This document shows positions 5,325 through 25,806 of a stretch of 64,000 nucleotides of DNA, one piece after another (the first letter of the stretch is position 1; every line of letters begins with the position of its first letter). Under the pieces are notes generated by a model. It ran no database searches. It was given only the letters and a program-made list of their open reading frames with translations, and was not told where the DNA came from. The DNA is taken from contig JAJRCF010000004.1 of NCBI GenBank assembly GCA_028679075.1, forward strand, positions 1 through 64,000, written 5' to 3'. The DNA comes from Methanoregula sp. (GTDB lineage Archaea > Halobacteriota > Methanomicrobia > Methanomicrobiales > Methanospirillaceae). Both the position numbers and the translations under genes were made by a program.

Positions 5325-6485
5325 ATGATAAAAAGAGATTTGTTGTTCACAATTGTTATACTTTTCCTTGCTGCAGGTGCCCTCATTGCCGGATGTACCA
5401 GCACGAGCACACCTCCGACTCCCACGGGGGCAGGAACTGTTGCACCATCAGCAACAACCGCAGGAACCCTGACCGTCACCGACCTTACCAACAGGACAGT
5501 TACTGTGCCCGCGTCACCCCAGAGAATCATCGGTGTCGGGGCGGGGGATGTCCGTATGCTCGTATACCTCCAGTCCTCCGATAAGATTGTCGGTGTCGAC
5601 CAGATGGAGAAGGGATCGACAAACAAAACCGCTCTCGGGATGGGAATGCCATCCGGCACTGACAGGCCGTACAGCCTCGCCCACCCTGAACTTGGCGAGA
5701 AGCCCTACATCGGGACGAACCGGATCGATGACCCTGAGCTGATTATCGCCCAGAAACCTGACATCGTCTTCGCAACGTGGCGGACTGCAAAGGATGCCGA
5801 TGCGCTCCAGGAAAAGACCGGTGTCCCGGTAGTTACTCTTGTCTCGGGAGATCTTGGGAAGGGCAAAGCCCAGTTCTACCAGTCGCTACGGCTGATGGGG
5901 AAGATCCTGGGCAAAGATGCCCGTGCCGAAGAGGTGATAGCCTATATCGATACAACGATTGCCGACCTCAACACCCGCACGGCGGATGCAGCAAAGACTC
6001 CGTCAAAGAAAGTCTATATCGCCGGGGTCTCCTTCAACGGCGCCCACGGGATTCTCTCCACAGAGCCGACCTACCCGTCCCTGAAGATGATCAACGGCAA
6101 TAACGTTGCCTCAGGCGCCGGGACCGGCGGGCAGGTCATGATTGACAAAGAGCAGCTGCTGGCCTGGGACCCGGATGTCATCTTCATCGATGAGTCGAGC
6201 TATGCCCTCGTTGCTGCCGATCTCAAGGATCCCGCCTACCAGTCCCTCAAGGCCGTGAAGAACAAGCAGGTGTATGGTCTTATGCCCTACAACTGGTATG
6301 CCAACAACTACGATACCGTTCTTGCGAATGCCTACTATATGGGGAAGATCCTCTATCCCGACCAGTTCTCCGATATCGAACCCGGGCAAAAGGCGGATGA
6401 GATCTACACAAACCTTGACGGGAAGGCAGTCTATTCCGACATGAAGGAGCTGTTCGGGGGATACAAACCCCTACAGGTCACCTGA
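5325..6485 (+). CDS. ABC transporter substrate-binding lipoprotein (BtuF/FecB type)
   Basis: Extracytoplasmic binding protein for a metal chelate such as a siderophore, haem or corrinoid. The chosen start gives a lipoprotein signal peptide (KRDLLFTIVILFLAAGALIAGC) with lipobox IAGC, followed by a Ser/Thr/Pro linker. The mature part has the usual PeriplasmicBP_2 landmarks: LTDLTNRTVTVPASPQRII at the start of lobe 1, PELIIAQKPDIVFA, a central helix, and LLAWDPDVIFIDESS in lobe 2. Its stop overlaps the next ATG, so it is co-transcribed with the methyltransferase and the FecCD permease. The ligand cannot be read from the sequence. Confidence 0.88.
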   Translation: MIKRDLLFTIVILFLAAGALIAGCTSTSTPPTPTGAGTVAPSATTAGTLTVTDLTNRTVTVPASPQRIIGVGAGDVRMLVYLQSSDKIVGVDQMEKGSTNKTALGMGMPSGTDRPYSLAHPELGEKPYIGTNRIDDPELIIAQKPDIVFATWRTAKDADALQEKTGVPVVTLVSGDLGKGKAQFYQSLRLMGKILGKDARAEEVIAYIDTTIADLNTRTADAAKTPSKKVYIAGVSFNGAHGILSTEPTYPSLKMINGNNVASGAGTGGQVMIDKEQLLAWDPDVIFIDESSYALVAADLKDPAYQSLKAVKNKQVYGLMPYNWYANNYDTVLANAYYMGKILYPDQFSDIEPGQKADEIYTNLDGKAVYSDMKELFGGYKPLQVT

Positions 6486-19095: not shown

Positions 19096-19752
19096 TCACC
19101 AGCCACGGGTATAATCGCTAAAGCAGGGAATACAGACGAAATTCCCGTTCTCCACTCTTGCACGCGACTCAGCGACCATCTCCCCGCATTTCGAACATTT
19201 CACGGAGTTGAAGAGTCTGGCTTGACCGGGAACTTCCGGCGTCACATGCTTCACGTCAAAGTAGTTTTCCGCAGGTTCCACAAGCATTTTATCGACCTGT
19301 GCCTGCATCATGGTCCGCATGACGGTGACCTCTTCGGGAGTCGCTTTTCCTTCCCTGACTTTCATGCGGAGACTCCTGAATGCCGGCTCTTCATCCTTTT
19401 CCCGGTCTTTCAGGGATATCCTGACAGCATCGTTTGTTGCACGGTTGATGAACGTGTATACGTGCTTGCCGTAATTCCGGAAGATCAGGTTTCCCTTTCC
19501 CATCGTACATCCCGTTACGGCCTGGATGGCATCAACCCCGCAGGCATCGTTCTCCACGATAGCAACCAGTTGTTCGTCAACATCACGTTCAGAACGCAGC
19601 TCTTTGATGGCAATCTTTGCAGCACAATAGCCGAGGGTGAACCCCGGGCAGACATGCCCGTGAAATTTCACTGCTTCAGAAAATGGCATGATGGTGGGTT
19701 CCCGCGAATCCTGGCCACCCTCCGCCATGCCGGAATGAGAATTCATGCACAT
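19096..19752 (-). CDS. FmdE-family protein with C-terminal zinc ribbon (paralogue 1)
   Basis: About 218 aa. The N-terminal FmdE domain has KFHGHVCPGFTLGYCAAKIA and the central VENDACGVDAIQAVTGCTMGKGNL, with conserved His/Cys residues that bind metal in this family. The C-terminus has a four-cysteine ribbon VKCSKCGE..FVCIPC. FmdE co-purifies with formylmethanofuran dehydrogenase in some methanogens, but stand-alone members beside ABC transporters are usually assigned to metal handling. ATG 19752 is listed because a TATA-like sequence lies near 19783-19790; GTG 19761 and ATG 19746 are alternatives. Next gene downstream is the binding lipoprotein. Confidence 0.85.
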   Translation of the reverse strand: MCMNSHSGMAEGGQDSREPTIMPFSEAVKFHGHVCPGFTLGYCAAKIAIKELRSERDVDEQLVAIVENDACGVDAIQAVTGCTMGKGNLIFRNYGKHVYTFINRATNDAVRISLKDREKDEEPAFRSLRMKVREGKATPEEVTVMRTMMQAQVDKMLVEPAENYFDVKHVTPEVPGQARLFNSVKCSKCGEMVAESRARVENGNFVCIPCFSDYTRGW

Positions 19753-19782
19753 TTTTATCACTTTTTTTCTTGATAGTACTAC

Positions 19783-19846
19783 GAAATAAACCTGCTGAAA
19801 AAAATCTTATCTGTTTTTCATTTAACAATAAAAAAAAATCCTATCT
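19783..19846 (-). promoter_or_regulatory. Promoter with direct repeats upstream of FmdE-1 operon
   Basis: Read on the minus strand, a TATA-like TTTATTTC (19783-19790) lies about 27 bp ahead of the FmdE-1 start. Just upstream are two near-identical 15-bp blocks, AAAAAAATCTTATCT (19798-19812) and AAAAAAATCCTATCT (19832-19846) as written on the plus strand, 34 bp apart, about three helical turns. They could be operator sites for the nine-gene transport operon. Confidence 0.4.
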
Positions 19847-19954
19847 TGTATGAAAAATTTGACTGGAATGCGTTTTTTTTACATTAGTGAGATGGCAAGG
19901 ATAACTGTATATGGTTACCGGCAGGAAAACGCGGAACAGAGAGATAAAAAAAAG

Positions 19955-20614
19955 TTAGTGTTTCTTTACTCCCTGCGTTCCCTCAGCACAAGGGATGCAG
20001 AGGCACTTCCCGTCGACAACCCTCGTCTTTGCGTCCGCAACAGACTCGCCGCAGCACGCACAGGTGACCGATTTGAAGATCCGGGCCTTCTTCGGCGCCT
20101 CCATCGTAATCTTCTCAATCTTCATGATTTTGTCGGCAGGCGCATGCAGGAGATCAACGGTGGCCTTGTGCATAAGGGCATGGAACCGCTCTGCTTCCGC
20201 CTCTGTCGCGGTGCCGCCGAAGACCTTCTTTCGCAGGTCCATCATGTCTGCGCTCTCGGTTGTGTCGTTGCGGCGGAATGTTACCCTAACCGCCTTCCCG
20301 TCATTCCGGTTATAAAACGTGAAGGCATGCTTGCCATAGTCATGGATGATGAGGTTTCCCTTGCCGGCCGTTGTACCAGCAATGACCTGGATTGCGTCGA
20401 CCCCGCAGGCATCGGTCTCGCAGATGGCGACAAGGTCCTCGTCCTCGGGGCGTGAAACGCCGAGGGCATCCATAGCAGCAGTTGCCGCACGGTAGCCGGA
20501 TGCAAGGCCCGGGCAGGAATGGCCGTGGAAACGGATGCAGTCATTAAACGTTACAGCCTGCTGGGCACCGGGGGGGTGGTGCCCGTGGTCATGATCATGA
20601 TTATGGTCGTGCAT
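19955..20614 (-). CDS. FmdE-family protein with His-rich N-terminus and zinc ribbon (paralogue 2)
   Basis: 219 aa from ATG 20614 with GGAG 7 nt upstream; the track's start lies inside the previous gene. The N-terminus is a His/Asp tail, MHDHNHDHDHGHH, typical of nickel, zinc or cobalt handling proteins. The FmdE core RFHGHSCPGLASGYRAATAA and ICETDACGVDAIQVIAGTTAGKGNL parallels paralogue 1. The C-terminal ribbon is VTCACCGESVAD..CLCIPC. It follows the FecE-type ATPase with 2 nt between stop and start. The tail suggests metal storage or delivery (inference). Confidence 0.87.
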   Translation of the reverse strand: MHDHNHDHDHGHHPPGAQQAVTFNDCIRFHGHSCPGLASGYRAATAAMDALGVSRPEDEDLVAICETDACGVDAIQVIAGTTAGKGNLIIHDYGKHAFTFYNRNDGKAVRVTFRRNDTTESADMMDLRKKVFGGTATEAEAERFHALMHKATVDLLHAPADKIMKIEKITMEAPKKARIFKSVTCACCGESVADAKTRVVDGKCLCIPCAEGTQGVKKH

Positions 20615-20616
20615 GA

Positions 20617-21399
20617 TTATTCTCCTATTCCGGTTTTGCAGGTGCCGGGGATGACGCACCGGACGCCGCCGAGTTCGCCGATTATGACCGGAAGACCGTA
20701 CACCTTCTCGATGACCAGGGGTGTGACCACCTCGGGCCCGCCATGCATATGTACCCTTCCGTTCTGGAGGAAGATGAACGAATCCGCAAACCTCAGGGCC
20801 TGGTTCAGGTCATGCATGGTCATGACCGCGGCGATCTTATGTTCGCGGGCGATCTCACGGATCGTGGTGAGGATATCCACCTGGTTCTTCAAGTCGAGGT
20901 TGCTTATCGGTTCATCGAGAAGGAGGACCCGTGGTTCCTGCACGAGGGCACGGGCGATGGCAACCTTCTGGAGTTCCCCCCCGCTCATCTCGTCGATATA
21001 ACTGAGGCGGAGATCCTGCATGCCGAGTTTCACGAAGATGGAGTCCACGATGGCAAGATCGCGGGAGGTAACGTCCCAGCCGATATGGGGACGCCGGCCA
21101 AGGAGGACGGCATCGAATGCAGTCAGCCGCCCGGTCTCCACCCGCTGCGGCACGTAACCGACTCTTTTGGCAATCTCCATAGTCCCGAGTTCGAGCAGGT
21201 TCCTGTCATCCAGCAGCACGGACCCTTCCTTGGGCCGGAGGATCCGGTTCAGGCACTTGAGGAGCGTCGTCTTCCCGACACCGTTGGGTCCAAGCACGGC
21301 TACCACCTCGCCTTCCCGTATGGAAAAGCCGATCTCTTTGAGCACATCCTTGTTCCGGTACATGAATTTTAGTTCATTGACACTCAGCATATCTGTCAA
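20617..21399 (-). CDS. FecE/BtuD-type ABC transporter ATP-binding protein
   Basis: 260 aa: Walker A GPNGVGKTT, signature MSGGELQKVAIARA, Walker B VLLLDEPISNLD, and the typical C-terminal GPEVVTPLVIEKVYGLPV of chelate-importer ATPases. The start is TTG 21399, overlapping the stop of the permease remnant (TTGA) with GGGGGT 7 nt upstream; ATG 21390 is an alternative. Its own permease is reduced to 25 codons, so it either serves the intact FecCD permease at 7565 in trans or is an orphan. FmdE paralogue 2 follows immediately. Confidence 0.92.
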   Translation of the reverse strand: MTDMLSVNELKFMYRNKDVLKEIGFSIREGEVVAVLGPNGVGKTTLLKCLNRILRPKEGSVLLDDRNLLELGTMEIAKRVGYVPQRVETGRLTAFDAVLLGRRPHIGWDVTSRDLAIVDSIFVKLGMQDLRLSYIDEMSGGELQKVAIARALVQEPRVLLLDEPISNLDLKNQVDILTTIREIAREHKIAAVMTMHDLNQALRFADSFIFLQNGRVHMHGGPEVVTPLVIEKVYGLPVIIGELGGVRCVIPGTCKTGIGE

Positions 21400-21682: not shown

Positions 21683-21772
21683 GAGGGGTCCCCACCCCTC
21701 CCTTCATGGGTGGGGGGGTCCCTGGTGCCGGATCCGGCCCAAAGAAGCGGGAGGGGTGGGTACCCCTCAAGG
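21683..21772. repeat. GC-rich repeat element, copy B
   Basis: About 90 bp that align in the same orientation with 4292-4390. Shared stretches include CCCTGGTGCCGG (CCCTGGCGCCGG in copy A) and GGGAGGGGTGGGTACCCCT. It lies between the fecE unit and atwA, so copies A and B bracket the island as direct repeats about 17.3 kb apart. The rest of the 21480-21834 gap is AT-rich with no gene seen. Confidence 0.7.
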
Positions 21773-21834
21773 ATAAATTTCAAACAATAAACACCGGAGA
21801 ATTCCGGAGAGCCGGCCCCCACTCGTCCCCGGTA

Positions 21835-23430
21835 TCAGTCCCTCTTCTCTTCCTCGGTCACCTGCATAAGGACCTGTGCCGTCGGGCCGATATCGATGAT
21901 CTTCCCGCCCCGCATGAGTGCCAGCCGGTCGCAGATGTCCCGGACAAAGTCCATGTCATGCGAGACGACGATGAAGGTCTCGTCCATCTCGTCGCGGGCA
22001 TTCAGGATCGAGTGTTTCACGTCCTGTTTCGTTATCGGGTCCATGGTGCCGGTCGGCTCATCGAGGATCACGAGGCGCGGCTCGCGGATGAGCACCTGCG
22101 CAAGGGCGACCCGGTGCCGCTCGCCATCCGAGAGTTCCGCTGGCATCCGGTCCAGGATCTCCTTTGATTTTTCTTCCGTGAACCCCGCCATGCAGAGCGT
22201 GACAACCGCTTTCCGGATTGCCAGCTCCTTGGGGAAATCCAGCCCGATCGACTCGGTGAGGTTGTCGATCACCGTGCGGTGGGGGAAGAGGTCGTATTCC
22301 TGGTGCAGGAGCCCGATGTACTCCTTCGCCCGGCCCCGCTGGTCGATGCCGGGTTTTGTCATGTCCACCCAGTCGTCGCCGATAAGGATGTTCATCTCGC
22401 CGCTCGTGGGTTCGATGATACCGGACATGATCTGCGCGAGCGTGGTCTTGCCCGCCCCGCTCTTCCCGATGATGCCGAAGATCTCCTTCTTTGCCACATC
22501 GAACGTGACCATATTTACCGCTTTCACAACGCCACGGTCCACCGAGACATAGCGCTTGGTCACATCCCGGGCAGACAGGATCTTCTCTCCCAGTTCCACG
22601 GGCTCCGTTGATTCGATCTCATGGTAGTCTTTTGCAAACGAGCGGATCACCGTCTTCGGCGAACCGATGGATGCGATTTCACCATCTACCAGTAGCATCG
22701 CACGGTTCGCCATGTCCTCGATCACCTGCGAGAAGTGCGAAGTGACGACCATGCCCATCGTGTTCTTCTTTGCCGCCTCAAGGAGCATGCCGTGCACCAG
22801 CCGGGCAGTCTCCGGGTCGAGGGTTCCCGTGGGTTCATCGGCAAAGAGCATTGCCGGATTCTTCGCCAGTTGTCGTGCAAGCACCACCCGCTGCTTTTCC
22901 CCACCTGAGAGGTCGCGGGCGATATGCATCATCCGGTGCGAGAGCCTGACCTGGTCGATGAGATCGGCAGCCCGGTTGATCGCGTTCTCCTGCGGGTAGT
23001 TGATGTCATCGAGCGCGTGCAGCACGTTCTCGATCACCCGGTCATCGCCATAGAGGGCAAACGTGCGCTGGAACATGATCGCGGTACGGCTCATGACCCG
23101 CGATTTCATGCCATTGCTCTCCTCGTCCCAGAGATCGACATCGACGGCAACAAGGTCTCCGCCGCATTCGGGACATCTCCCTCCGGCCCGGCTCTGTACA
23201 TCCATAAAGGAACACCGGTCGCAGGCCGCCATGTGGTAGACAATGGAGCCTTTGGTCGGCGGTTGTTCTACACCGCGGAGGAGGTGCATGAGCACGCTCT
23301 TCCCGGCCCCGCTCCGCCCGATGACGCCGATGATCTCCCCTTCGGGGATCTCGAACGAGATGTTGTTTAAGACCCGCGTGTCATCGAAGTCCATGCAGAG
23401 GTCGTGTACGCTGATAAAAGGTTGTGGCAT
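21835..23430 (-). CDS. atwA: Methyl-coenzyme M reductase system component A2 (ATPase)
   Basis: 531 aa with two ABC cassettes and no membrane segment. The first has Walker A GRSGAGKSV and signature LSGGEKQRVVLARQ; the second has Walker A GKSGAGKTT, a signature-like LSDGERHRVALAQ, and Walker B LVILDEPTGTMD. A four-cysteine insert, CDRCSFMDVQSRAGGRCPECGG, in the first cassette is diagnostic of component A2, which drives ATP-dependent reductive activation of methyl-CoM reductase in the cytoplasm. It follows the small DUF5320-like gene by 8 nt and probably shares its promoter at 23624-23651. Confidence 0.93.
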   Translation of the reverse strand: MPQPFISVHDLCMDFDDTRVLNNISFEIPEGEIIGVIGRSGAGKSVLMHLLRGVEQPPTKGSIVYHMAACDRCSFMDVQSRAGGRCPECGGDLVAVDVDLWDEESNGMKSRVMSRTAIMFQRTFALYGDDRVIENVLHALDDINYPQENAINRAADLIDQVRLSHRMMHIARDLSGGEKQRVVLARQLAKNPAMLFADEPTGTLDPETARLVHGMLLEAAKKNTMGMVVTSHFSQVIEDMANRAMLLVDGEIASIGSPKTVIRSFAKDYHEIESTEPVELGEKILSARDVTKRYVSVDRGVVKAVNMVTFDVAKKEIFGIIGKSGAGKTTLAQIMSGIIEPTSGEMNILIGDDWVDMTKPGIDQRGRAKEYIGLLHQEYDLFPHRTVIDNLTESIGLDFPKELAIRKAVVTLCMAGFTEEKSKEILDRMPAELSDGERHRVALAQVLIREPRLVILDEPTGTMDPITKQDVKHSILNARDEMDETFIVVSHDMDFVRDICDRLALMRGGKIIDIGPTAQVLMQVTEEEKRD

Positions 23431-23438
23431 GGTCCTGG

Positions 23439-23597
23439 TTACCTCGTCGTGGGTTCGGCAGCATTCCGGTCCCGGGCATGACGGTCCGGATCCTGTTCTT
23501 CCTGCAGGTAACCTGCGGCGCTCTTCCTGCAGGGTCCCCTTCCCCGCCCGATAACCCGGCCCCGTTTCAAAGGTCCGGTCCCGTCATAGTTCGGCAT
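23439..23597 (-). CDS. Small DUF5320-like protein, 52 aa
   Basis: Too short for the ORF track. The protein begins MPNYDGTGPLKRGRVIGRGR followed by GPC, matching the MP(x)(D)GTGP(x)G(x)G...GxG(x)GxC N-terminus of small DUF5320-family proteins of anaerobes, often found near DUF134 regulators and NifX/Mrp proteins. GAGGG lies about 8 nt before ATG 23597. It ends 8 nt before atwA and begins about 25 nt downstream of the predicted transcription start of the 23624-23651 promoter, so it is first gene of the atwA operon. Function unknown; metal or redox association is inferred from neighbours of the family. Confidence 0.7.
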   Translation of the reverse strand: MPNYDGTGPLKRGRVIGRGRGPCRKSAAGYLQEEQDPDRHARDRNAAEPTTR

Positions 23598-23623
23598 AGT
23601 ATTCCCTCACTTCGCAGGGAATT

Positions 23624-23651
23624 ATTACGCATATGAGCATAAAGATTTAAG
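23624..23651 (-). promoter_or_regulatory. Promoter-operator for DUF5320-atwA operon
   Basis: On the minus strand: CTTAAATCTTTATG (TATA region, 23638-23651) directly followed by the near-palindrome TTATGCTCATATGCGTAA, which falls between TATA box and expected start site. The same arrangement is found at 24814-24844 ahead of the DUF134 operon. An occupied site here should block transcription, so a repressor is the simplest reading. Confidence 0.6.
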
Positions 23652-23770
23652 GATCGGGATCGCATGAACGTATGCGGAGCGGGCACCGGCATGCATCTCC
23701 CGGTCACCTTCAGGGTACCGGCATACCGGGCACCCGGCCCGCTAAAAAAGGTATTGCGTTTCTTGTTTCT

Positions 23771-24145
23771 TTATTTCTGGTCAGCAGCATCCCGCGGGCA
23801 TTTCGGGCAGCGGCCCTCGGCAGCTCTTGTGCAGCCGGCCATCTCGATACCCTTGCCGTTGACGAGTGCATCGGCAATTTTCCGGCGGGCTTCGTGCAGG
23901 TCGCGCCACGCGGTCTTGCGGGAGACCCCGAGTTTCTCGGCTGCCTCTTCCTGTTCGAGCCCTTCGAGATCGATGAGCCGGATCAGTTCAACCTCCTCGG
24001 GCTGGAGCGAGATGCCTTTACCCTCTCCTTCACAGCAGCAGGGCTTGTAACACCGCGACTCGGATGTAGTGGCAATGATACGCCTCACGCGTGGCCGTCC
24101 CCGCCGCGGGCATTCGTTCACATCAATGCTCTCATCCGCTGTCAT
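23771..24145 (-). CDS. DUF134 family predicted DNA-binding protein
   Basis: 124 aa. N-terminal PRRGRPRVRRII and a cysteine cluster CYKPCCCEGEG resembling a metal site. These are followed by a sigma-70 region 4-like helix-turn-helix, VELIRLIDLEGLEQEEAAEKLGVSRKTAWRDLHEARRKIADAL. The tail has more cysteines (CTRAAEGRCPKCPR). DUF134 proteins are putative regulators commonly beside NifX-type or DUF5320 genes. As the only obvious DNA-binding protein nearby it is a candidate to bind the two promoter-operators at 23624 and 24814 (inference). It is the last gene of a three-gene minus operon. Confidence 0.88.
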   Translation of the reverse strand: MTADESIDVNECPRRGRPRVRRIIATTSESRCYKPCCCEGEGKGISLQPEEVELIRLIDLEGLEQEEAAEKLGVSRKTAWRDLHEARRKIADALVNGKGIEMAGCTRAAEGRCPKCPRDAADQK

Positions 24146-24210
24146 GGGATTCTCCTGAGTATAGTGTGTAACCTGAAGAGTAATAACATGTATACCGGGT
24201 TTATGACGAT

Positions 24211-24510
24211 TTATTCAGCACCGGAGACCTGATGTTTTGCCTGCACCGGCCGTACCTGCACAAGATACTTCTTGATGATCCGGTATGGCGGGGTTGTATC
24301 CCGGAACTTTTCCATCCGGGCTACCTTATACGGGCAGGAAACGAACGGGCCGTGGTGGATTTTCTGCAAAAAACCTGAGAATGCCGGCCCTGCCGATTCT
24401 TCCATCTGGAAGAACGAACGGAGTTCCCTGACCGTGACCCAGCGTTCAGCCGAACCGGTTGCTTCCATGTACTGCTCCAGCAGTTCAGGGACTTCCGGAT
24501 GTCGGATCAT
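24211..24510 (-). CDS. Hypothetical protein, 99 aa
   Basis: Family not recognised. The N-terminal 60 residues (EVPELLEQYMEATGSAERWVTVRELRSFFQM..FSGFLQKIHHG) look like a winged-helix or small helical DNA-binding fold, and the C-terminus FRDTTPPYRIIKKYLVQVRPV is a beta-rich basic segment. It sits 40 nt after the Cys-rich gene and 65 nt before the DUF134 gene, consistent with co-transcription. Confidence 0.65.
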   Translation of the reverse strand: MIRHPEVPELLEQYMEATGSAERWVTVRELRSFFQMEESAGPAFSGFLQKIHHGPFVSCPYKVARMEKFRDTTPPYRIIKKYLVQVRPVQAKHQVSGAE

Positions 24511-24550
24511 AGCAACTCCTTAACGGGGTTTTAAAAAAAAGTGAGCTGCC

Positions 24551-24781
24551 CTAATGGCACCGGGGGCCGTGGCCGCAGCGGTTGCGGGCTTCTTTTGCGG
24601 CCTCACCGGATCCGCAGCAGCAGGAATCGCCGAATTTCAGGTCAGACGTGCAGGCATCCCGGTGGCTGGGAGAACCCGGAATTTCCTCGTGCTGCTCGCC
24701 GCAGGCGCAGGTATGCAGGGGGGTGGATTTCTTATCGTTGCCGGCTTTTCTGGTATCGCTGGATTGTGTAGTATCTGGCAT
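24551..24781 (-). CDS. Small Cys/His-rich protein, 76 aa
   Basis: Hydrophilic protein with nine cysteines and several histidines in clusters: LHTCACGEQH, GDSCCCGSGE and the C-terminal RCGHGPRCH. This pattern suggests binding of a metal or Fe-S cluster. ATG 24781 has GGTGA just upstream. It is first gene of the operon with the 99-aa protein and DUF134, and its promoter carries the same operator as the atwA operon. Family not recognised. Confidence 0.6.
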   Translation of the reverse strand: MPDTTQSSDTRKAGNDKKSTPLHTCACGEQHEEIPGSPSHRDACTSDLKFGDSCCCGSGEAAKEARNRCGHGPRCH

Positions 24782-24793
24782 TTGTTCACCAAC

Positions 24794-24810
24794 CGTACGG
24801 CGGCCGTACG
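24794..24810. promoter_or_regulatory. Perfect inverted repeat in the 5' leader of the Cys-rich gene
   Basis: CGTACGGC-G-GCCGTACG, eight paired bases around one centre base, lies between the predicted transcription start (about 24812) and the ATG at 24781. With a one-base loop it is better read as a protein-binding site on DNA than as an RNA hairpin. Confidence 0.5.
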
Positions 24811-24813
24811 ATA

Positions 24814-24844
24814 ATTACTCATATGCGCATAAATCATTTAAACC
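24814..24844 (-). promoter_or_regulatory. Promoter-operator for the Cys-rich / DUF134 operon
   Basis: Minus strand: TTTAAATGATTTATGC (TATA part) running into GCGCATATGAGTAAT. Aligned with 23624-23651 it gives the consensus TTAAAT-n(1-2)-TTTATGC(G/T)CATATG(A/C)GTAAT. The centre CATATG is a palindrome and the outer TTATGC/G(C/A)GTAA arms are nearly so. Confidence 0.6.
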
Positions 24845-24954: not shown

Positions 24955-25806
24955 ATGACTCCCGGGCTCACGCTCACCGTCCTTATCGATAATACCTGTC
25001 TTGCGGATCGTGATTTCTGTGGCGAGGCCGGGCTCTCGTTCCTGCTGGAAACGGGGGGTAAGAAGATCCTCTTTGATACCGGCTTGTCAGGGCTTTTCAT
25101 TACCAATGCGGAGAAGATGGGTCTCAGCCTCCGTGACCTGGACTTCCTCATCCTCTCGCACGGACATATCGATCATACCGGGGGACTGGCTGCGCTCACC
25201 CGGCACCTTGCCGGTGCAACACCTGATCGGAGCCCGCCCCGGGTGCCACAACTCATCGCCCACACCCGCTGCTTCTGGCCCAAAGAAAAAGACGGCAGGA
25301 ACAATGGTTCGGAGGTAAGCGAGGCGGAGATCCGCCATCAGTATCCAACCAGCCTGTCCGAAAAACCGGTCTGGATTACGGATGACCTTGTCTTCCTCGG
25401 GGAGATCCCACGGAGGTTCCCGTTCGAGGAGGGTGGGCCGGGGACACGGAAGGTCTTCCTGCCGGATGGCAGTGCGGAGCCCGATCACCTGCCTGATGAT
25501 ACGGCTCTCGCATTCCGCTCGGCAGAAGGACTCGTCATCATCACCGGATGCTCCCACGCGGGGATCTGCAACATCACGGAATACGCCCGGGAGGTATGCG
25601 GGGAGAAGCGGGTTGCCGATATCACCGGCGGGCTCCACCTGCTGGCACCAGAACCAAAACGGTTTACAAAGACAGGGAAATACTTAAACCGCCTCCACCT
25701 CAACGACCTGCATGCCTGCCACTGCACATCGCTTCCGGCAAAACTCGCTCTCGCAGATTATTGTCCCATGCAGGAGGTAGGCGTGGGGATGAAGTTTGAG
25801 TGGTAG
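24955..25806 (+). CDS. MBL-fold metallo-hydrolase (COG1237 type)
   Basis: 283 aa. The zinc motif is LILSHGHIDHTGGL (HxHxDH), with FLLETGGKKILFDTGLSG before it, GCSHAGICN and DITGGLHLL later, and LHACHCTS near the C-terminus. This matches the COG1237 group. One member has been linked to methanopterin synthesis (dihydropterin ribofuranosyl-aminobenzene phosphate synthase, as annotated for several methanogens). The specific reaction here is not certain. It stands alone on the plus strand; ATG 24955 is the first start in frame. Confidence 0.85.
   Translation: MTPGLTLTVLIDNTCLADRDFCGEAGLSFLLETGGKKILFDTGLSGLFITNAEKMGLSLRDLDFLILSHGHIDHTGGLAALTRHLAGATPDRSPPRVPQLIAHTRCFWPKEKDGRNNGSEVSEAEIRHQYPTSLSEKPVWITDDLVFLGEIPRRFPFEEGGPGTRKVFLPDGSAEPDHLPDDTALAFRSAEGLVIITGCSHAGICNITEYAREVCGEKRVADITGGLHLLAPEPKRFTKTGKYLNRLHLNDLHACHCTSLPAKLALADYCPMQEVGVGMKFEW

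Follow-up and report, generated by a model that had tools for sequence, protein, structure and literature searches.

NifX-family proteins handle clusters of the L-cluster type in the assembly of nitrogenase. Component A2 (AtwA) belongs to the activation complex of methyl-CoM reductase, which holds L-cluster-like [8Fe-9S-C] clusters whose probable maker is NifB (PMC12176620). Genomes of Methanothermobacter carry several atwA genes (two and three), for which the parts of the source used here describe no regulator or operator (PMC3087415). The ORP clusters of Desulfovibrio encode together a NifX-like protein (DiNase), an Mrp/NBP35 ATPase, and ferredoxin-containing ATPases; the Mrp and NifX-like proteins of this system bind or transfer Fe–S clusters, Mrp and DiNase are fused in MrpORP, and the ORP operons are controlled by sigma54 (PMC6345978). 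As to regulators, autoregulated one-component HTH repressors, such as DeoR, have a palindromic operator in the core promoter and their own gene within the regulon, and autoregulated archaeal repressors acting downstream of TATA have it between the TATA box and the start, before the operon of the regulator itself.

The locus described here, from Methanoregula sp., has features in common with these systems. In the window (the whole 64,000-nucleotide stretch of DNA that was analysed) and on a second, small contig, C37 (locus L006), one element recurs at five promoters, and we consider it quite probable, judging from sequence comparison, that it serves as the operator for a small regulon under autoregulation, the regulator being DUF134, itself one of the regulon's products. 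The layout is that of the archaeal TATA-downstream repressors. The regulon has AtwA in common with the activation complex, but its AtwA is a second copy, a multiplicity also seen in Methanothermobacter, and the operator-bearing operons do not encode McrC or Mmp7. NifX-family, Mrp/NBP35, and ferredoxin-containing ATPase genes are grouped as in the ORP clusters, but Mrp and NifX are separate proteins here (the 280-aa Mrp of L006 has a NUBPL-type domain only), and the promoters carry a CATATG operator instead of being sigma54-controlled.

The shared promoter element

The preliminary description of the window reported matching minus-strand promoter sequences in front of two operons, and both are found: TTTATGCTCATATGCGTAAT at 23624–23643(−) (operator 1) and TTTATGCGCATATGAGTAAT at 24814–24833(−) (operator 2). 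A TATA box lies ahead of each at an almost equal spacing, CTTAAATC at 23644–23651(−) for the DUF5320–atwA operon and TTTAAATG at 24835–24842(−) for the operon of the Cys-rich protein, p99, and DUF134. With up to three mismatches allowed, the pattern TTTATGCKCATATGMGTAAT matches the window at operators 1 and 2 only, and 100 dinucleotide shuffles of the window give no match to the 20-bp motif. Over all 2.5 Mb of the genome, the pattern search, again with up to three mismatches, calls exactly five operator sites, those outside the window being C37:5513, C37:8513, and C37:9491, while the reversed-pattern control in the same 2.5 Mb calls none. Every one of the five belongs to a TATA-type promoter, where it stands downstream of the TATA box and ahead of the predicted start, and the motif is thus not one that is scattered over the genome without promoter context. 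The view of the element as a common promoter sequence is ruled out by the same number, just five genomic sites.

The logo, built from 106 distinct sites of this genome and its relatives, in which both window operators and their TATA spacing are represented, places the TATA box at −10 to −2 and the operator at 0 to 20, its end falling at about the predicted start; the element is ca. 20–21 bp long and the TATA spacing is fixed. The palindrome thus occupies the position, between TATA and the predicted start site, that had been assigned to it from the two window copies. The near-palindrome centred on CATATG is itself real, as C4 and G13 are invariant and T2 and A15 mostly paired, and in one sister genus the operator is the perfect palindrome TTTACTCATATGAGTAAA. 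A direct-repeat reading (TATGCGCA/TATGAGTA) is possible by eye; the inverted repeat is preferred because the other DUF134 classes carry inverted repeats only. As far as sequence can tell, the motif common to these promoters is a genuine operator. An initiator or other specialised core-promoter sequence, or a leftover of promoter duplication, to which no dedicated protein binds, would agree with the fixed TATA spacing and with the paralogous genes shared by two of the loci (DUF5320, DUF134, p99, and MBL), but the mere five copies per genome, the dyad symmetry, the conservation across two classes, and the sequence changes linked to the DUF134 helix (see below) leave it scarcely any probability.

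The preliminary description had also foreseen that the motif might be absent upstream of the orthologous genes in relatives; it is present there, in Methanoregula, in Methanocorpusculum, and in other genera and families. Across 101 genomes of the family, about 178 copies of the strict motif TNNRCKCATATGNGTAA stand against 6 reversed-pattern controls (hand sum), and a survey of 296 near-complete genomes from the phylum finds it almost only within the order Methanomicrobiales, the exception being variants in Methanocellaceae. When loci are picked by DUF134 similarity alone, the motif stands behind TATA in nearly all Methanoregula and in Methanocorpusculum, and in other genera and families the same gene sets follow the same element, often in variants outside the strict pattern. 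In Methanocellaceae, which belong to a different class, related sites [TA]..TCKCATATGAGTAA follow TATA in all four genomes examined and precede NifX–MinD–MinD–NifX–DUF134 or DUF134–NifX–Mrp–AtwA operons. A regulon gene lies downstream of 106 of the 122 unique sites in the fetched loci, a figure that is descriptive because loci L117–L156 were partly selected by the motif. In several relatives (L141, L148, L150, L153, and L143) a further operator is found before a gene for a protein of ca. 238 aa (MSNEPMKIP...), DUF169-like by eye.

Genes behind the five sites and the second AtwA

Operator 1 (23624) had been described as heading an atwA operon. The operon does contain atwA, but its first gene is an overlooked one coding for a small Gly/Arg-rich DUF5320 protein of 52 aa (23439–23597(−); PF17253, E = 3.7e-7, above the curated cut-off), which has a paralogue behind operator 3 on contig C37. 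Operator 2 (24814) is followed by the genes of a Cys-rich 76-aa protein (24551–24781(−)), whose gene regularly opens this operon in Methanoregula and its near relatives and which has no match in Pfam or NCBIfam, of p99 (24211–24510(−)), and of DUF134 (23771–24145(−)). On C37, site 3 (L006 5513) precedes genes for DUF5320, a NifX-family protein, an Mrp/NBP35 ATPase, and two p99 paralogues; site 4 (L006 8513) precedes those for a NifX-family protein, two ferredoxin-MinD ATPases, a second DUF134, and a DnaJ-domain protein; and site 5 (L006 9491) precedes a NifX-family gene. The ferredoxin-MinD ATPases (L006 6371–7252 and 7249–8100) comprise CbiA plus 4Fe-4S domains, and the NifX-family gene beside them lies at L006 8162–8497. 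The 3' end of mcrA is located on the same small contig as sites 3–5. Shared control of the two window operons, as proposed earlier, is supported by the common operator in the same promoter position, and the putative regulon is indeed small, with five sites; nevertheless, it exceeds the two operons originally envisaged, and NifX-family, Mrp, and ferredoxin-MinD genes dominate it.

A second possible regulator encoded in these operons is p99, a protein of 99 aa with a predicted winged-helix-like fold (weak structural matches only), of which the genome has three copies (window 24211–24510; L006 3108–3831), all in operator-bearing operons, as would be expected of an operator-binding protein. Its distribution largely refutes this role: p99 is present in 6 of the 25 genomes searched, in genera g1, g11, and g16 only, and is absent from most of the operator-bearing ones among them, including g8, g12, g13, g15, and Methanocellaceae, so that p99 as the regulator is most improbable.

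The AtwA encoded in the window (21835–23430(−); TIGR03269, 854.7 bits against an equivalog cut-off of 517.1) is component A2 of methyl-CoM reductase in a second copy, the one linked to DUF134. The other copy (G000:C18:53575-55161) is 75% identical to it, the ATPase motifs being common to both, and no operator is found within the 12-kb surroundings of the C18 gene. The earlier proposal of a control of methyl-CoM reductase activation therefore holds in that an operator stands ahead of an atwA gene, but a regulon governing the sole or housekeeping activator is rejected, since there is another, operator-free atwA on C18. Genomes with a DUF134-linked atwA mostly hold an unlinked copy too, including all four Methanocellaceae. 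In the AtwA tree the linked copies of the Methanoregula type form one clade (19 rows, support 100/100), next to which stand the unlinked copies of these genera, and linked copies from other genera branch deeper.

The presence of NifX-family, Mrp, and MinD proteins in one regulon with a second A2, together with the L-cluster-like clusters held by the activation complex, suggests by analogy that the regulon serves conditional cluster supply or methyl-CoM reductase re-activation. Its operons (DUF5320, NifX-family, Mrp, ferredoxin-MinD, second AtwA, DnaJ-like, and DUF134) would then constitute a conditional module for the supply or repair of metalloclusters and for the re-activation of methyl-CoM reductase; a link to the supply of the L-cluster in particular is speculation. 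Several methanogens carry a second methyl-CoM reductase activator under an operator of its own, in the company of genes of a metal-cluster-handling type, which makes the questions of when and how the methane-forming enzyme is re-activated, and where the iron–sulfur clusters of the activation complex come from, accessible to genetic and transcript tests.

DUF134 and the sequence of its putative operator

The window DUF134 (PF02001/UPF0251) is a protein of 124 aa with a PF02001 score of 79.5 bits (gathering cut-off 27), the second copy, on C37, scoring 78 bits; its nearest named relatives come from Methanoregula. Members of the family occur widely, in archaea as well as in bacteria. No functional work on it was found in the open-access literature searched, so that an earlier description elsewhere is possible, and no member was found in viral contigs or phages by the searches made. 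The HTH core of the window protein is predicted at a pLDDT of about 97, and the predicted structure matches DNA-binding folds, those of sigma region 4 and of the DeoR DNA-binding domain (Bacillus subtilis, 7bhy; 0.6 Å over 40 residues). DUF134 differs from DeoR in having no sugar-binding domain, in the Cys pairs flanking its HTH, and in belonging to a family, present in both archaea and bacteria, whose putative operators retain a CATATG-like core while the flanks vary with the helix. Two such Cys pairs are found in the window DUF134 and in 94 of 102 rows of the W[RKQ]D type (a redundant set), and some motif-bearing lineages have a DUF134 without one or both of them; the Cys pairs could hold a metal or an Fe–S cluster.

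DUF134 is the only predicted DNA-binding protein that accompanies the regulon throughout, and the regulon-linked proteins share the recognition helix SR[KR]TxW[RKN]D; that of the window protein is of this W type (VSRKTAWRDL). The suggestion that DUF134 is the autoregulator now appears likely, as the class of operator follows the class of recognition helix both within the order and across bacteria. The W-type helix (SRKTxWRD) goes with the operator TTACTCATATGAGTAA. Among loci chosen only for DUF134, the motif lies within ca. 4.5 kb in 48 of 59 with a W-type protein and in none of 41 with a non-W-type protein, the control pattern giving no hits in these loci, and an upstream operator on the same strand is found for W-type DUF134 in 81 of 122 loci, many of the others being truncated or having the site elsewhere. 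Loci of the SQPTFHR type in the same family of genomes (L130, L132, L134, L144, L146, L263–L270, and L274) all lack the W-type motif upstream (14/14); all 14 have instead an exact TGAATATATATTCA ca. 300 bp upstream, ahead of a DUF5320–DUF134 operon, whereas the background for this sequence, one mismatch being allowed, is 6 matches in 650 kb. In Aenigmatarchaeota, Methanocellales, and Alkanophaga, proteins with the SQPTFHR helix go with GAATATATATTC.

Outside the motif-bearing order, a CATATG-centred palindrome (at least three of four flank pairs) is found upstream of DUF134 in 15 of 49 loci, against 0.28 expected from shuffles (maximum 3), and about two thirds of the 49 have no recognisable palindrome. 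Here the palindrome is TGCACATATGTGCA with the helix VHRST[IV]SRI (5 loci), GAACATATGTTC with TTFSR, GAGCATATGCTT with SRQTFG (QTFG), and TGACATATGTCA with TVQ. No convincing upstream palindrome was found for the DUF134 proteins of Methanosarcinaceae (WED/WSD helices). The plasmid-borne DUF134 genes, examined after the rule was stated, have a CATATG-centred site within ca. 100 bp of the start in six of eight loci and no recognisable palindrome in the other two; as several of the eight are close relatives, the independent count is ca. 4/6. In the convincingly identified cases, an Arg-to-Gln change at one position of the helix coincides with a G-to-A change at position 3 of the half-site, from which it is predicted that this residue contacts the third base. 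Such a rule, in which the effect of the helix is not fully separable from those of taxonomy and type of operon, gives the widespread DUF134 family a concrete role and a predicted base contact. On plasmids of Enterobacteriaceae, Aeromonas, and Salinivibrio (L283, L286–L289), DUF134 genes are followed by genes for cluster-binding proteins of the NifB/NifX family, and in Pusillibacter the two are fused, the same partnership as in methanogens.

An unlinked transcription factor, with DUF134 as just one of its targets, would explain why a DUF134-less genome (G004) retains one site, upstream of a DUF169-like gene, and since gains and losses of DUF134 coincide with those of the operons, co-occurrence alone does not separate it from DUF134. 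Near-complete genomes of the order without DUF134 have lost the motif in 7 of 8 cases, and those with DUF134 have it in 49 of 67 (hand tally; Fisher p = 0.0015), but the value of the former as natural knock-outs is downgraded: those examined lack the linked atwA as well, and the co-loss is therefore not independent evidence. An unrelated factor, however, would not predict palindromes that differ with the helix class of DUF134 in one order and across bacteria, which makes this explanation a rather unlikely one.

With DUF134 as the regulator, a dimer would sit on the CATATG-centred inverted repeat, downstream of TATA and ahead of the start site, and, when bound, would keep the five promoters silent by obstructing RNA polymerase or access to the start site, until a signal releases it. 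A response to metals or redox state, as suggested in the preliminary description, is a possibility. Repression by occlusion is favoured from the position of the site, between TATA and start in archaea and overlapping or adjoining a recognisable −10 or −35 in bacteria. A role for site-bound DUF134 as an activator of transcription, or as a promoter-recognition factor, is unlikely: its HTH does resemble sigma region 4 and the operators do sit inside core promoters, but the resemblance to sigma-70 is limited to a region-4/ECF-type HTH (residues 46–94; PF08281, PF04545), no region 2 was found by domain search, and the position between TATA and start, or overlapping or next to a good −35/−10, is the usual layout for occlusion. 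DUF134 differs from sigma-70 and ECF factors also in being a stand-alone protein of 124 aa, a proposed dimer on a palindrome, in archaea that use TBP and TFB.

A wider reading, to be taken as a whole and held only tentatively, is conceivable without being the probable one: the DUF134 family would consist, in both domains, of autoregulatory repressors that follow a readable protein–DNA code, in which the core is [C/T]ATAT[G/A], the third base of the half-site is set by Arg or Gln, and the flanking triplets by the rest of the helix, and its W-type member in Methanomicrobiales and Methanocellales would run a conditional module of the second AtwA and NifX/Mrp/MinD carriers, possibly supplying nitrogenase-type clusters for the re-activation of methyl-CoM reductase.

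Leader hairpins and adjoining sequences

Both window operons have a hairpin in the 5' leader, beginning near the predicted start. The one of the DUF5320–atwA operon (ATTCCCT...AGGGAAT) lies at 23601–23622(−) and is weakly conserved at promoters of the DUF5320 type; the other (ATCGTACGG...CCGTACGGT) lies at 24792–24812(−). In 20 leaders of the DUF5320 type the 5-bp stem has 93% of its cells paired, with double changes in four of the five pairs, a pairing equalled in none of 500 shuffles. The stem-loop could be a stabiliser of the mRNA 5' end or a second DNA dyad. A third leader stem-loop is seen at L006 ca. 5490–5515(−).

The two regulon loci also resemble each other in their surroundings. Paralogous genes for proteins of the metallo-beta-lactamase fold, 74% identical, lie beside both on the opposite strand (window 24955–25806(+) and L006 2144–3022(+)), and a similar G/C-rich intergenic sequence (...GGGTCCCC...GGATCCGGCC...GGGAGGGGTGGGTACCCC...), apparently a dispersed repeat, is found at ca. 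21684–21775 in the window and ca. 700–870 in L006. Adjoining the regulon in the window (19096–21399(−)) are genes for two FmdE-type proteins with a C-terminal zinc ribbon and for an ABC ATPase of the iron/corrinoid type, a possible metal uptake cluster.
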